A stretch of 64,000 nucleotides of DNA from a virus. Both the position numbers and the translations under genes were made by a program. The DNA is taken from the IMG/VR virus record IMGVR_UViG_3300028844_004205, positions 1 through 64,000 of that record; one strand, written 5' to 3'. The first letter of the stretch is position 1. Each line of letters opens with the position of its first letter. The notes under the pieces are model-generated. The model did no database searches. It was not told the DNA's origin and was given only the letters and a program-made list of their open reading frames with translations. Below are positions 52,394 to 57,551 of this stretch, piece after piece.

Positions 52394-52599
52394 AATGTTA
52401 CCAAAAAATTGATGGGATAACAGAATACCCATTTAAAGGTAAAATCAAATCACAATCTAGTAACTACTGGTTTGTGCTCACCGCAGGAAGCGATGATGTT
52501 ATACGCACATTAAAAGGAGCGTGCAGTGACCCTTTCAAGGACCGAAAGACCCCTATTCGAACACCAAAAAATAACCGTAAACGCAAGCCAAAAGACTGA
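52366..52599 (+). CDS. Small hypothetical protein
   Basis: The frame encodes 77 residues. The first 55 residues (WYVKCYQKIDGITEYPFKGKIK...WFVLTAG) read as a plausible small domain. The last 25 (RKTPIRTPKNNRKRKPKD) are translated from the start of the helicase gene, which it overlaps by 74 bp, and may be a by-product. GGAAGATGG precedes the ATG. Confidence 0.45.
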   Translation: MDNNDTWYVKCYQKIDGITEYPFKGKIKSQSSNYWFVLTAGSDDVIRTLKGACSDPFKDRKTPIRTPKNNRKRKPKD

Positions 52600-53920
52600 T
52601 AGACTATTCGATATGAGCGACCCCGGAACGGGGAAAACAAGAGCTCATTTAGAAGCTTGGTCTATTCGTAGAAAAGAAGGAGGTAAATGCCTCTTAGTTA
52701 TTGCGCCTAAATCTTTATTAGAACCCGCATGGGGCAATGATATAGAAGAGTTTACTCCAGACTTCACTTACTCTGTAGCGTATGCTAATAACAGAGAGAA
52801 AGCGTTTGCAGCAGAAGCTGATATTTATATTACTAACACCGATGCAGTTAAATGGTTAGCTCTTAAAAAACCAGCCTTCTTTGAAAAATTTGATTCTATA
52901 GTAATAGATGAGAGTACAGCTTTTAAGCACAGAACATCTGGTAGATCTAAAGCACTTAATAAAATAAAGAAATATTTTAAATATAGAGCTGCTTTAACCG
53001 GTACACCCAATTCTAATTCAATCACAGAAATATGGAATCAAGTATTCTTTCTAGATGATGGAAAACGATTAAGCACTAAATTCTTTGCTTTCCGTAATCA
53101 AGTGTGCACACCTACACAAGTCGGTGCTCAAGCTCACATGATTAAATGGACAGATAGACCCGGATCATTAGAAGCAGTAACAGGTTTAATAAAAGATATT
53201 TCAGTAAGACATAACATAGATGAATGTATGGACTTACCAGAAAATATTGATAGGTACATTAAATTTAATCTTAATCCAGCTCACTTAGTGAAATACATAA
53301 AGATGGAGAAGGATGCATTCTTGAAGTTAGAAGACGGAAATGTAGATGCAGTTAATGCAGCAGTACTTAGAAATAAATTACTCCAAATAGCTTCTGGTGC
53401 GGTATACACAGAAGGTGGAGAATATACTTTACTAGATTCCAAACGATATGAATTAGTAACTGACTTAGCCCAAGAAAGAGAAAACACTGTAGTATTTTTC
53501 TTGTGGAGACACCAAAAAGAACAACTTATAAAAGAAGCAGATAAACGTGGTATAAGTTTCGAAGTAATCGATGGAACTGTACCAGTAAGAAGACGTAAAC
53601 TAATAGTTGACGCTTTTCAAGCTGGTTTCTTTAAAGAACTTTTAATACATCCTAAAACAGGGGCTCATGGCTTAACTTTAACAAAAGGCAGAGCTACTAT
53701 CTGGCCATCCCCTATATACGAACCTGAATTATTCAAACAAGGTAAACATAGAATAGTTAGAAGTGGTCAAGAAAAGAAAACAGAAAACCTTATGGTACTG
53801 GCTACTGGTACTGTAGAAAAGAATGTATACGAAACATTTTCTGGGAAAAACACAAAGATGGTCAATTTCCTAGATTTAATAAATTACTGTCAAAATGAAA
53901 GGAGTGACGATAATGAGTGA
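52526..53920 (+). CDS. SNF2-type DNA helicase/translocase
   Basis: The gene encodes 464 residues from GTG at 52526, with AAGGAGCGTGCA upstream. Motif I is GTGKT (34-38), motif II DEST (128-131), motif III TGTP (158-161). The C-terminal lobe has VVFFLWRHQKEQL, HPKTGAHGLTLTKG and the motif VI-like HRIVRSGQ. It would remodel DNA or protein-DNA complexes during replication. It overlaps the first gene of the ubiquitin-like cassette by 8 bp, so the two are translationally linked. Confidence 0.88.
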   Translation: MTLSRTERPLFEHQKITVNASQKTDRLFDMSDPGTGKTRAHLEAWSIRRKEGGKCLLVIAPKSLLEPAWGNDIEEFTPDFTYSVAYANNREKAFAAEADIYITNTDAVKWLALKKPAFFEKFDSIVIDESTAFKHRTSGRSKALNKIKKYFKYRAALTGTPNSNSITEIWNQVFFLDDGKRLSTKFFAFRNQVCTPTQVGAQAHMIKWTDRPGSLEAVTGLIKDISVRHNIDECMDLPENIDRYIKFNLNPAHLVKYIKMEKDAFLKLEDGNVDAVNAAVLRNKLLQIASGAVYTEGGEYTLLDSKRYELVTDLAQERENTVVFFLWRHQKEQLIKEADKRGISFEVIDGTVPVRRRKLIVDAFQAGFFKELLIHPKTGAHGLTLTKGRATIWPSPIYEPELFKQGKHRIVRSGQEKKTENLMVLATGTVEKNVYETFSGKNTKMVNFLDLINYCQNERSDDNE

Positions 53921-55274
53921 AACACAATATTTAACTATTGATAATAGTATACTAAATATACCAGATGCAACTTTCGCGGAAGTACTAAATGATGCATCCG
54001 CAGATGAAGCATTTAAATATGATGCAACAAACGACAAAATATTAGTAAAACATTCTTGGGCTATGAATTATTTCAAATCCATGGAATGTGATGAAGATTT
54101 TAAATTAGTTAATGTTAAAGTAAACAAGACTTTATTTATGCCTTCTTCTCGAATAAACATACAAAGCTTATTCGAATCTATTTTTATTGGTAGAGAATAT
54201 AATTTACATATAGGTATAGAGGAGTCTATAAATCCTATTAATGCTAATAGGTTAAAAAAAGACGATGCTACTTTAAATATAATAATTCCTAGCGCCTTGG
54301 AAGCAAGTAATTCAAGTCAGCAATTTATGATAAAGAATTCTACTTTCTTTGTCCTAAAAGAAACTGACGCCCTTAACACTATAGGCGTCTCATACAACCC
54401 TGAAGATATGTTCAAGGAATTAATAGCTTACGCTGAGGAATCAGGTGAAGTTCGACACGATGATAAAAGTATTGCTTATTTTATATATCCTAATACATTA
54501 GTATTAAATCATTACTTCAATACTGGTGTAACACGATGTAATGATATATTTAGAGATATGTATAAAGATATATTCAACTGGACTAATCTATGTATGGCGC
54601 AACCCAAAGAATCTTTTGAGGAAGCTAGAGAAACTAAAGAACGAGAGCAAGCTGTAAAATGTATAACCAAATACCTAGAATCAGAAATAGCTAGTAAGGG
54701 TAGCGAAATATCAGATACTGAACGTACTATTGAACAAAATAGAATTAATCTATCTTCTAATATAAGAAAATTGGAAGATCTTAAATTCTTTATCAAAGAT
54801 TATTCAGAAGATATGGATACTTTAATAACACGCACTATTGATAGTGTAATGACTTTAAAAAGTAATGCTAAAATTAGAGATGTAAAACTTAACTCTACAG
54901 GTTTTTGTGTTTACACTGACCCTTTACTTATGACTGTTCCAGCTAATCATTCGGACCAAGTAGAAGGTGATCAGCGAACCGCGACCAGAGTTGGTGGACC
55001 ATACATAATAAACTTCACTTTTAATCAATCACGAATTATTATTCTTGCAGCTAATCCTGACACAGATAACAGACAAGGTGCTTGGGGCGGTCAATGCCAC
55101 CCTCATGTAAGTAATCATGGAGAAGCCTGTTGGGGAAATGCATCTGAAACAATAGCAGAAATGCATGGTAAACGAGAGTTTGCTATGCTCACAGAATTCG
55201 TAATGGCTTACTTAGAAACATGTAATCCTGCGGACAGTGCTGGGGCACACTTCCATAAATGGCCCATTTTTTAA
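53913..55274 (+). CDS. Protein with C-terminal E2/UBC-like segment (ubiquitin-like cassette)
   Basis: The gene encodes 453 residues from ATG at 53913 (GGAGTGACGATA site). Residues 1-235 are of unknown fold; 240-310 form a coiled coil (EREQAVKCITKYLESEIASKG). The C-terminal 100 residues follow the E2 pattern: strand pair GPYIINFTF...RIIILAANP, then HPHV (396-399), a Gly, candidate catalytic Cys406 in GEACWGN, a helix MLTEFVMAYLE and CNPADSAG, the place of the E2 PNPDDPL loop. It would carry the modifier as thioester. Overall identity to known E2s is low, so the fold is a prediction. Confidence 0.6.
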   Translation: MSETQYLTIDNSILNIPDATFAEVLNDASADEAFKYDATNDKILVKHSWAMNYFKSMECDEDFKLVNVKVNKTLFMPSSRINIQSLFESIFIGREYNLHIGIEESINPINANRLKKDDATLNIIIPSALEASNSSQQFMIKNSTFFVLKETDALNTIGVSYNPEDMFKELIAYAEESGEVRHDDKSIAYFIYPNTLVLNHYFNTGVTRCNDIFRDMYKDIFNWTNLCMAQPKESFEEARETKEREQAVKCITKYLESEIASKGSEISDTERTIEQNRINLSSNIRKLEDLKFFIKDYSEDMDTLITRTIDSVMTLKSNAKIRDVKLNSTGFCVYTDPLLMTVPANHSDQVEGDQRTATRVGGPYIINFTFNQSRIIILAANPDTDNRQGAWGGQCHPHVSNHGEACWGNASETIAEMHGKREFAMLTEFVMAYLETCNPADSAGAHFHKWPIF

Positions 55275-55304
55275 ATAATTAACCCTTCAAAAGGAGGACA
55301 TAAT

Positions 55305-55517
55305 ATGTCTATTACAGTTAAAGTTGGTGTTGTACCCGGTTCTATTAACGAATTCGGTTTAAACGATGGCGCTAAAGTTTCAGACGCGCTATCTGCAGCT
55401 CGTTTATCAGGTGCTGGTTATGCTATCACCGTAAATGGTGAAAAGGCTACAGCCGATACTTCATTAAGTAACTGCGACCGCATTCTGTTGACTAAATCAA
55501 TTAAAGGCAACAGCTAA
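55305..55517 (+). CDS. Ubiquitin-like modifier, ThiS/MoaD-like beta-grasp protein
   Basis: The gene encodes 70 residues. Strand KVGVVPGSI, turn and helix DGAKVSDALSAARL, strand YAITVNGEKA, and the end CDRILLTKSIKGNS follow the ThiS layout, whose C-terminus reads DQILLFQVIAGG in E. coli. Here Gly68 is followed by Asn69-Ser70, so removal of two residues would expose a C-terminal Gly for adenylation. AAAAGGAGGACATAAT is the strongest ribosome binding site in the cassette, and a terminator follows, both pointing to excess production of this modifier. Confidence 0.75.
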   Translation: MSITVKVGVVPGSINEFGLNDGAKVSDALSAARLSGAGYAITVNGEKATADTSLSNCDRILLTKSIKGNS

Positions 55518-55538
55518 GCCAAAACAATGGCAAAATCT

Positions 55539-55570
55539 AAAGGGGCCGCTAAATAGTAGCCCCTTTTTTT
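55539..55570 (+). terminator. Intrinsic terminator between modifier and protease genes
   Basis: AAAGGGGC and GCCCCTTT (55539-55546 with 55559-55566) form an 8-bp stem with a 12-base loop, running into a T tract to 55570. Being inside the cassette, it should attenuate transcription, so the E2-like and modifier genes are transcribed more than the JAB and E1 genes. Confidence 0.85.
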
Positions 55571-55583
55571 CCGGAGAAAATTT

Positions 55584-56390
55584 ATGAAAATTAAGAAACT
55601 AGGACCGGATCCATGTGTATGGCTAACGGTAGAAGCAAAAGCAAAAATTGATTACCTAGTAAAACTAGCTTCTAAAGAAGTAGGCTGGCTGGGTAAAGTA
55701 CAAGAATATACTGACATGCAATATGTTATAGAAGACATATTCTTAGTCAAACAAGAAGTAACAAGCGCAGAAACAGAACTAGATGATGAAGCACTTGGAA
55801 CATTTTTCAATGAACATTTTGACGATATTGAGAAATTCCATTACTGGGGGCATAGCCATGTTAACATGCCGGTTAATCCTTCTGGGCAAGATGTAAAACA
55901 GATTACGGAATTCATCGTCGATAAACAAACAAAAACCATAAAAAATGAATACTTTATTATGGGTATTCATAACAAAAGCGGACAAGTACGCTGGGATATT
56001 TATACCCCTACTATTATTTATGAAGAAGTAGAAAGTAAATTATACTATGGTGAAATGGGTTTTGAAGAAGAACTTAAAGCTCAATTTAAAGAATTAGTTT
56101 CGGAGAGAACTTATGCAACAAACACATACAACACATGGCCCAATGGCCGTAACAACAGATCCCCTCAATATCCAGCGACATCAAGAAGTGTTCACGGAAA
56201 GGATGATGCGGGGAAAAACAATCGATCTGATAGGTTGCGGGGCGACAGGGTCAAAGATAGCATTGAGTATGATGAAGCTTGGGATTCAGAAGTTGCGTAT
56301 CTGGGACGGCGACATAATCGAGGAGCACAACATCCCAAATCAGGCGTTCTTGACACCGATGATTGGACAGAAGAAGGCTGGTTCAATTAA
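55584..56390 (+). CDS. JAMM/JAB metalloprotease (deubiquitinase-like)
   Basis: The gene encodes 268 residues. The full JAMM motif is present: His90-Ser91-His92, Ser100 and Asp103 (GHSHVNMPVNPSGQD, H-x-H-x7-S-x2-D), with Glu32 in KEVGWLGK as catalytic base. The JAB core ends near residue 175. The last 92 residues (hydrophilic, ending DTDDWTEEGWFN) are encoded by DNA that also encodes the E1 in another frame. It would mature the modifier C-terminus or remove it from targets. CCGGAGAAAATTT precedes the ATG. Confidence 0.85.
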   Translation: MKIKKLGPDPCVWLTVEAKAKIDYLVKLASKEVGWLGKVQEYTDMQYVIEDIFLVKQEVTSAETELDDEALGTFFNEHFDDIEKFHYWGHSHVNMPVNPSGQDVKQITEFIVDKQTKTIKNEYFIMGIHNKSGQVRWDIYTPTIIYEEVESKLYYGEMGFEEELKAQFKELVSERTYATNTYNTWPNGRNNRSPQYPATSRSVHGKDDAGKNNRSDRLRGDRVKDSIEYDEAWDSEVAYLGRRHNRGAQHPKSGVLDTDDWTEEGWFN

Positions 56391-56826
56391 AGAAATGGCT
56401 CCATGGGCCACAGATGTAGAAATACGTAACGAGCATTATACCGGACAAGAGCCTTTAGGTAATATAGTATTCTTACTAGTAGATAGTATGGAAGTAAGAA
56501 AAGAAATTTTCGAACGAGATATCAAACTGAAACCTAACGTAGAACTCATGATAGAAACTAGAGCGGGTACTAATATAGGTATGGTATATACTATTAACCC
56601 TAGAAAGCATAGCGATATAAAACTCTGGGAAGACAAGTGGTACCCGGACAGCGAAGCAGAAGTATCCGCTTGCGGAGCAGTATTAAGTGTAGGCCCTACG
56701 GGTGACATAATATCTGGATATGCTGTATGGGCAATGATGGCATACTTCAGAGGTAAAGAGAATATAGCAAACAGAGAATTAATCTTCTGTACTGAAGGTG
56801 ATACTCTCATAATGAATAAGCATTAA
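56113..56826 (+). CDS. ThiF/E1-like modifier-activating enzyme
   Basis: The gene encodes 237 residues. The nucleotide-binding loop is GCGATGS (41-47) in KTIDLIGCGATGSKIALSMMKLG, followed by LRIWDGDIIEEHNIPNQ with Asp65 as the ATP/Mg-coordinating position, and VFLLVDSM (119-126). Cys187 in EVSACGA is a candidate thioester cysteine. No CxxC zinc pairs are seen, unlike many ThiF/MoeB proteins. It would adenylate the modifier C-terminus and pass it to the E2-like protein. The start ATG at 56113 has GGAGAG upstream and lies inside the JAB gene. Confidence 0.85.
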   Translation: MQQTHTTHGPMAVTTDPLNIQRHQEVFTERMMRGKTIDLIGCGATGSKIALSMMKLGIQKLRIWDGDIIEEHNIPNQAFLTPMIGQKKAGSIKEMAPWATDVEIRNEHYTGQEPLGNIVFLLVDSMEVRKEIFERDIKLKPNVELMIETRAGTNIGMVYTINPRKHSDIKLWEDKWYPDSEAEVSACGAVLSVGPTGDIISGYAVWAMMAYFRGKENIANRELIFCTEGDTLIMNKH

Positions 56827-56841
56827 TAAAGGAGGCTATGG

Positions 56842-57408
56842 ATGGCCGAGCAATATAATTTACAAACACTCATAGGTATTACTGGACCCGCAACCGCTGG
56901 CAAAGATACAGCAGCAGCATGTCTAGTTCATAACTTTGGGTTCAAACGTTACGCACTAGCAGATAATCTTAAAGCAGCAGCTTGCTATATTTTTGGTGTA
57001 ACAGACTTTGATATACAAAATAGAAAAGAAACTAAAGTGCCTTTCTGGGATAAATCCCCTAGGGAATTACTTCAGCTTATGGGCACACAAGCTATGCGAG
57101 AAACATTTGGTCCTGATATATGGGTTAAATCTTTAACGAAAAATATCATAGATACTCATCCCCAGAAAGTAGTAGTAACAGACATCCGCTTTGATAACGA
57201 AGCAGAATGGATCAAAAAAACTGGGGGAGTAATATGGAAAATAGAACGTGATGCAGCTGCTAAAGTAGCCGCGCATGTTTCTGAAGATGGTATAGATGAT
57301 AAATTGGTAGATGTTGTGTTCAATAATAACGATACTATCGAAGCTTTATACGAACAACTAATACGTGAGTATATGGCTAATTTAATAGAAAACCTAGCAA
57401 ATAAATGA
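56842..57408 (+). CDS. Deoxynucleoside monophosphate kinase
   Basis: The gene encodes 188 residues with P-loop GPATAGKDT (15-23), ARG-type FGFKRYALADNLK, SPRELLQLMGTQAMRETFGPDIWV and VVTDIRFDNEAEWI, the pattern of phage dNMP kinases (T4 gp1 type). It supplies dNDPs for replication and complements the HD hydrolase upstream. AAAGGAGGCTATGG precedes the ATG. It follows the E1 gene by 15 bp, so it is probably in the same transcript. Confidence 0.88.
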   Translation: MAEQYNLQTLIGITGPATAGKDTAAACLVHNFGFKRYALADNLKAAACYIFGVTDFDIQNRKETKVPFWDKSPRELLQLMGTQAMRETFGPDIWVKSLTKNIIDTHPQKVVVTDIRFDNEAEWIKKTGGVIWKIERDAAAKVAAHVSEDGIDDKLVDVVFNNNDTIEALYEQLIREYMANLIENLANK

Positions 57409-57551
57409 GTACCGCGAGGTATATATACCTCGTCTTCATAAGCACAGGCTTGGTATTAAAGACAATAGTATTAGCTAGAGAGATAGTTAAACATTACAAA
57501 GAACATAAAAAGGAACAAGATGAAGCTACCGAAAAAGATAGCGATACTTGA
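57405..57551 (+). CDS. Small membrane protein candidate
   Basis: The frame encodes 48 residues, MSTARYIYLVFISTGLVLKTIVLARE then a charged helical tail rich in Lys, Glu and Asp. The ATG overlaps the kinase stop (ATGA) and the 3' end overlaps the polymerase start by 32 bp, so it fills the only gap between these genes. One membrane helix is predicted. Function unknown. Confidence 0.5.
   Translation: MSTARYIYLVFISTGLVLKTIVLAREIVKHYKEHKKEQDEATEKDSDT

Follow-up and report, generated by a model that had tools for sequence, protein, structure and literature searches.

Most of what is known about ubiquitin-like conjugation in bacteria comes from defence systems such as CBASS and Bil. The locus analysed here raises the question whether a phage encodes an E2 enzyme and, if so, whose pathway that enzyme would serve. 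The window, that is, the whole stretch of DNA that was analysed, comprises bases 1-64000 of a virus record with a total length of 66,365 bases; a first-pass annotation had described one of its proteins as a coiled-coil protein that ends in a highly divergent E2-like domain. It is very probable that this protein is the E2, the attaching enzyme, within a small phage gene set that looks capable of activating, attaching and removing a ubiquitin-like protein (Ubl) tag of its own. The features discussed below are collected in Table 1.

Table 1. Features of the cassette and examples of associated loci. Positions refer to the window unless preceded by a locus name.
Feature	Position	Strand	Remarks
E2 ORF	53913-55274	+	453 aa; ATG preceded by AAAGGAG, overlaps helicase stop
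N-terminal region, residues 1-231	53913..54605	+	no detectable relative; low-confidence model
Long helix/coiled coil, residues 232-297	54606..54803	+	single predicted helix, pLDDT about 80-96
E2-like (UBC) domain, residues 300-453	54810..55271	+	pLDDT 88.7, pTM 0.86; Foldseek; leave-window-out HMM
Motif HPHVSNHGEACWG	55098..55136	+	H398 (55104-55106), C406 (55128-55130), G408
C-terminal CNPADSAG...KW motif and stop	55218..55274	+	D441 (55233) conserved; mirrors E2 PNPDDPL
Ubiquitin-like protein	55305..55517	+	70 aa; C-terminus SIKGNS; strong Shine-Dalgarno AAGGAGG; leave-window-out HMM 3.1e-17
Terminator-like G+C-rich hairpin, then T run	55539..55566	+	between Ubl and JAB genes; predicted -15.3 kcal/mol for 55531-55572
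JAB/MPN isopeptidase	55584..56390	+	PADLOC JAB 3.3e-8; leave-window-out HMM 1.2e-51
JAMM motif HSHVNMPVNPSGQD	55851-55892	+	fits HxH-x7-SxxD
ThiF/E1-like adenylating enzyme	56113..56826	+	Pfam ThiF 7e-13; GCGATGS 56233-56253
Reverse-transcriptase loci, examples	L002:5888-7225, L055:7035-8165, L072:6963-8195; about 37 further loci

A predicted E2 fold at the end of a coiled-coil protein

In a model of the full-length protein, pLDDT values are mostly below 50 across residues 57 to 210, and only the coil and the C-terminal part are well predicted; outside of the coil and the E2 domain, the model is too poor to identify the N-terminal region. When residues 1-235 were compared by blastp with 81 viral E2 proteins, no relative emerged either (best E-value 0.19). 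Homology to the protein of locus L027 and to others begins at residues 212-266, and at least the coil is common to the family; it is plausible that the N-terminal half selects the targets. The coiled coil had been placed at residues 240-310 by the first-pass annotation. A coil does exist, but its claimed end is helix 1 of the E2 domain. The domain itself, which had been thought to start near residue 350 (nucleotide 54960), begins at around residue 300, since a helix (residues 301-316) and strands (residues 321-342) belong to it. A direct search with the whole protein found no relative in IMG/VR; in INPHARED it gave only a weak hit (E-value 0.02) between the coil region and fibre genes of Vibrio phages, which was rejected as a coil match.

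Residues 300-453 were modelled together with 51 relatives. In the numbering of this model, the predicted fold consists of helix 2-16, strands 22-27, 31-36, 39-42, 60-70 and 76-80, the cysteine and helices 109-120 and 124-136. It thus shows the layout of a UBC domain, with helix 1, a four-strand meander, the cysteine on a flap and C-terminal helices, and the structure prediction that had been proposed as a check speaks for the E2 assignment. When the model was compared with 350,542 PDB chains using Foldseek, ranks 1 to 10 were all occupied by E2s, and a further E2 was found at rank 12; the matching E2s include UBE2S, a Leishmania E2, UbcH10, UBE2H, UBE2W, UbcH5b and Ubc13. These matches are of modest strength, with E-values from 0.032 to 0.56 and TM-scores that are mostly about 0.4-0.5; the best match has a probability of 0.98 and a TM-score of 0.50.

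Profiles were seeded from a few clear members and then run on all ORFs of the 138 loci described below. Because iterated profiles favour their own members, the window was also scored with itself left out: the profile of the 81 remaining relatives recognized the E2 ORF with an E-value of 3.8e-21, and the next-best value among all ORFs of the window was 0.57. Comparison with profiles of the bacterial E2_A and E2_B families gave a score of 30.9 (E-value 1.7e-4), in which the PHV..G..C residues were aligned; the maximum of 20 column-shuffled controls was 15.4, and JAB, E1 and Ubl profiles reached at most 12.1. Pairwise hhalign comparisons with single bacterial E2s were insignificant on their own. 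The E2 protein is matched by no family of Pfam, NCBIfam, PHROGs or PADLOC, the E2 models of Pfam and NCBIfam (UQ_con, Prok-E2_A to E) match none of 60 and 52 family members, UQ_con and Prok-E2_B have no match in the record, and nothing was found in a search of PDB sequences with the E2 profile. That curated models miss the protein bears on its membership in a named subfamily, not on its membership in the superfamily.

Low sequence identity and Foldseek E-values above 0.01 could be taken to mean that the resemblance of the C-terminal part to E2s is a coincidence. This is extremely improbable given the leave-window-out score, the E2s at the top PDB ranks and the adjoining genes for E1, JAB and Ubl, and is already contradicted by the conservation of this neighbourhood. 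As judged from the model, the C-terminal part of the 453-amino-acid ORF is an E2-like (UBC) domain, in agreement with the first-pass annotation.

Conserved residues of the putative active site

The sequence elements GPYIINFTF, RIIILAANP, HPHV, Cys406 and CNPADSAG, which had led to the E2 assignment, are present in the order described, and the distance of ten residues between the HPH motif and the cysteine holds when it is counted from the first histidine, His396 (codon at 55098). The second histidine, His398, lies eight residues upstream of Cys406 and occupies the position of the catalytic asparagine in the HPN motif of UbcH5, which is likewise found eight residues before the cysteine. HPHVSNHGEAC thus keeps the HPN-type spacing with histidine in place of asparagine, as in the PH[VIL]..G..C motif of the bacterial E2_A and E2_B families. 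Cys406 is kept in 136 of 137 aligned viral relatives, the sole loss being the second E2 copy in locus L087. For the histidine, the conservation that had been expected at position 396 is found at His398 instead (134/137); position 396 is occupied by histidine in 35 and by asparagine in another 35 of 82 relatives. His398, Cys406 and Gly408 are invariant in two alignments of relatives (A3 and A4), and Asp441 of NPADSAG is kept in at least 90% of the aligned rows.

These residues also bear on the idea that the protein carries an inactive E2-like domain, either an RWD-like scaffold or a decoy, which engages host Ubl enzymes of the CBASS or Bil type and thereby acts in anti-defence. Phages must face defences that use Ubls, and an E2-like fold lacking the cysteine is described for operon type 6e in the passages of PMC1779556 on such bacterial operons. 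However, Cys406, His398, Gly408 and Asp441 are conserved as would be expected for an enzyme, and the phages supply their own Ubl and E1, which would be needless for a decoy; we therefore regard this explanation as very improbable.

A four-gene cassette within the replication region

The genes surrounding the E2 ORF are all encoded on the plus strand in the order helicase, E2 ORF, Ubl, JAB, ThiF/E1, dNMP kinase (56842) and DNA polymerase (57520). All four conjugation functions are adjacent, as in an operon, each is present as a single copy within the window, and together they span positions 53913-56826, flanked by genes annotated as SNF2-type helicase and dNMP kinase. This neighbourhood, which had not been part of the first-pass annotation, strongly supports the E2 reading. 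The Pseudomonas phage KPP25 matches the window at 37-40% in a collinear series of primase/helicase, PD-(D/E)XK nuclease, helicase and DNA polymerase. In KPP25, the genes for helicase and polymerase are adjacent, whereas the window carries the Ubl cassette and the dNMP kinase gene between them (52526-57520). Since the flanking order in KPP25 is identical without the cassette, the latter is an accessory block in the replication region. Taken together, a KPP25-like phage is likely to carry a cassette of four genes for ubiquitin-like conjugation, in which the ORF encodes the E2.

A scan for consensus promoters gave matches at chance level only, and the hairpin between the Ubl and JAB genes (Table 1) does not appear among the results of the consensus scan. 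The position of this hairpin and its T run downstream of the Ubl gene suggests that transcripts of E2 and Ubl may exceed those of JAB and E1.

A search of the PDB with the Ubl family profile detected the protein modifier SAMP2 of Haloferax (2l32, 1.3e-6) and ThiS (1f0z, 1.5e-3), and the alignment runs through the K-G tail. The Ubl lacks a terminal diglycine and ends in KGNS instead. In the branch to which the window belongs, the tail is KGN, usually followed by zero to two residues, and several relatives stop exactly at KGN. Some relatives are made up of two or three consecutive Ubl units that end in KGN; such precursors, which resemble polyubiquitin genes, are found at L040:5302-5940, L028:7197-7868, L034:7221-7649, L041:7267-7770 and L012:6729-7199.

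The E1 protein best matches ThiF/MoeB models and only weakly the PRTRC ThiF model (2.2e-5). Its candidate catalytic cysteine, Cys187 (56671, in SACG), is invariant among four and among eight aligned relatives. The JAB reading frame overlaps the E1 gene by 278 nucleotides in another frame (56113-56390), the longest overlap among 116 JAB/E1 pairs, and about 90 residues at the C-terminus of JAB may stem from read-through and not form a conserved part of the protein.

Recurrence of the cassette in viruses

The family was reached via the E1 protein: two scans of IMG/VR and three annotated phage records yielded 138 viral loci, including the window. Among these, an E2 was found in 115, a Ubl in 127 and a JAB in 131 loci, and all four genes lie close together in 109. 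The most common order is Ubl-E2-JAB-E1 (52 loci), and the order E2-Ubl-JAB-E1 is unique to the window. The same E1 search in 84,980 species genomes of bacteria and archaea recovered about a dozen cassette loci, all of them on mostly short MAG contigs, from which it follows that the cassette is chiefly viral; two of the contigs, with lengths of 146 and 266 kb, may stem from large phages or from real genomes.

Several loci deviate from the simple arrangement. Two E2-like genes per cassette, usually in tandem, are present in L007, L011, L012, L014, L087, L088, L099-L107, L109-L111 and L115. In the crAss-like phage PhiCrAssBcn1 and in bajarodcaudo virus 1 (L218:3049-4383 and L217:3367-4668), a protein of 430-440 amino acids with the motif MHSHV...TPCTG adjoins an E1 and a JAB-like protein; it is probably a still more divergent E2, beyond the reach of the E2 profile. 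Both loci also encode a Ubl-like protein with the motif IKSGA. Rumen loci in which the profile detects no E2 (L121:3829-5145, L126:3823-5121, L138:3878-5155) carry an ORF with GYLHFGKGHLCGGEF or a similar sequence upstream of the JAB gene, which is perhaps another divergent E2. In Flavobacterium phage Fpv2 (L004:2674-4966), an annotated endonuclease gene, which runs on the opposite strand, interrupts the JAB gene; this suggests a mobile intron or a similar insertion.

The Ubl and E1 proteins could also act as a sulphur carrier system, which makes a thiocarboxylate in order to thiolate tRNA, DNA or a cofactor, with the E2-like protein as an accessory acceptor. The Ubl is ThiS-like as well, the nearest models of the E1 are ThiF and MoeB, and JAB, Ubl and E1 genes co-occur in bacterial sulphur-assimilation operons according to the relevant passages of PMC1779556. 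On the other hand, neither the genes beside the window's cassette nor the sampled neighbours included a recognisable rhodanese, SirA or sulphur-metabolism gene, and the E2 is a constant partner with a nearly invariant cysteine. The extra C-terminal residues and the tandem copies of the Ubl suggest processing for conjugation, although fusions of sulphur carriers also occur. A role as sulphur carrier thus seems improbable, and protein conjugation is preferred.

A proposed conjugation pathway

Since the KGN tail can carry extra residues and Ubl units occur in tandem, JAB is expected to process the Ubl after the glycine or after the asparagine, thereby trimming it to its mature C-terminus (SIKG/NS or SIKGN/S). 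The ThiF/E1 protein would then adenylate the C-terminus of the Ubl and load it onto a cysteine of its own, probably Cys187, from where the Ubl could move on to form a thioester with Cys406 of the E2, in which His398 takes the place of the HPN asparagine. The N-terminal region and the coil may hold the target, and the Ubl would be joined to a lysine or another nucleophile of a phage or host protein. If the target is held in this way, the E2 could act without a separate E3, as we propose here. JAB might also be able to remove the tag. The position of the cassette among replication genes hints at proteins of replication or host takeover as the likeliest targets.

The same chemistry could serve a different target, namely in superinfection exclusion through the tagging of virions in the manner of Bil. 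The cassette is accessory and absent from KPP25, and Bil, which is said to comprise the same four functions, is anti-phage. Two points argue against such a role, which we consider rather unlikely: the cassette lies among replication genes, not in an accessory defence locus, and it is present in many unrelated phages.

A branch associated with reverse transcriptases

In the branch of the family with a short-loop E2 (NPH.....C), a reverse transcriptase with the motifs QGxxxSP and YADD is encoded 0-1.5 kb downstream of the E1 gene in 38 of 43 loci; none of the 67 loci of the window's branch has one there (both counts refer to loci whose downstream sequence extends for 2 kb or more). Among the five exceptions are two tandem-E2 loci, which the simple motif rule probably misfiled. 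In nine reverse-transcriptase loci, an Rfam search found tRNAs and one sRNA, and no retron family. The link to reverse transcriptases, which lies outside the window, may be the most surprising observation made here.

The recurrence of the cassette in more than a hundred further phage sequences suggests that protein tagging of a kind once thought to be special to eukaryotes is common among phages. A broader generalisation can be put forward only tentatively: a large number of tailed phages, which range from those with 50 kb to jumbo phages and probably include crAss-like phages, might run a complete Ubl pathway with a coiled-coil E2, a KGN-tailed and sometimes tandem modifier and a JAB, which tags replication or host proteins during infection and which, in one large branch, is functionally coupled to a reverse transcriptase. 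If this is true, a diverse, phage-owned set of E1, E2, Ubl and JAB proteins, which is nearly absent from cells, would mean that bacterial viruses use tagging for their own ends, and it would bear on the origin of E2 enzymes. The proposal can be tested in cultured phages such as Xanthomonas phage PhiXhv-15 and perhaps in cultured crAss-like Bacteroides phages.

Comparison with known systems

The phage cassette has several features in common with other prokaryotic conjugation systems. PRTRC operons of plasmids likewise bring the four functions together, with protein B (Prok-E2_D), protein C (a Ubl), a ThiF protein and protein A (a JAB), and the cysteine of PRTRC_B falls on Cys406 in a pairwise hhalign alignment, which is not significant on its own. 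However, neither a PRTRC ParB nor protein E was seen beside the phage cassette, and the E2 has no match to Prok-E2_D. In the Bil system, reportedly described in 2024, BilA (Ubl), BilB (E2), BilC (E1) and BilD (DUB) are said to be encoded by separate neighbouring genes with anti-phage function and to tag virion proteins. The likeness to Bil considered here is one of functions: Bil loci are bacterial defence loci, whereas the phage cassette lies among replication genes and combines a single or tandem KGN-type Ubl with a coiled-coil E2. Haloferax SAMP2, which the Ubl profile matches including the K-G tail, ends in GG, and archaeal SAMPylation is not known to involve an E2.

Conjugation by CBASS is known from experiments (PMC10097602). 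Type II CBASS, with the E1-E2 fusion Cap2 (Prok-E2_B) and the JAB protein Cap3, shares with the phage cassette the PHV..dG..C motif, a ThiF-type E1, a JAB and the profile-profile match. In contrast to the phage cassette, which has a separate Ubl and an E2 with an N-terminal coiled coil, Cap2 combines E2 and E1 in one chain and acts on the CD-NTase; the phage E2 is not matched by the Prok-E2_B HMM, and no CD-NTase is found among the genes beside the cassette.

Iyer, Burroughs and Aravind described bacterial operons with Ubl, JAB, E1 and E2-like proteins, as well as the phage tail Ubl TAPI with the JAB/NlpC protein TAPK; the relevant passages of their paper mention no phage E2 (PMC1779556). TAPI and TAPK are a phage-encoded Ubl and JAB too, but they are products of tail-assembly genes and have neither E1 nor E2 alongside. 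For operon type 6d, the passages of the same paper on these operons report an E2 without the upstream histidine, whereas His398 of the phage E2 is nearly invariant. A search of the open literature, as distinct from preprints and most subscription journals, found no description of a phage-encoded E2 or of an E2 cassette; a GenBank phage record from rodent faeces labels its E1 as 'E1 enzyme family protein', so that at least the E1 had been noticed before. Since related bacterial systems exist (CBASS Cap2/Cap3, 6A, PRTRC and Bil), the phage cassette is to be seen as a viral variant of them, and as a new one.
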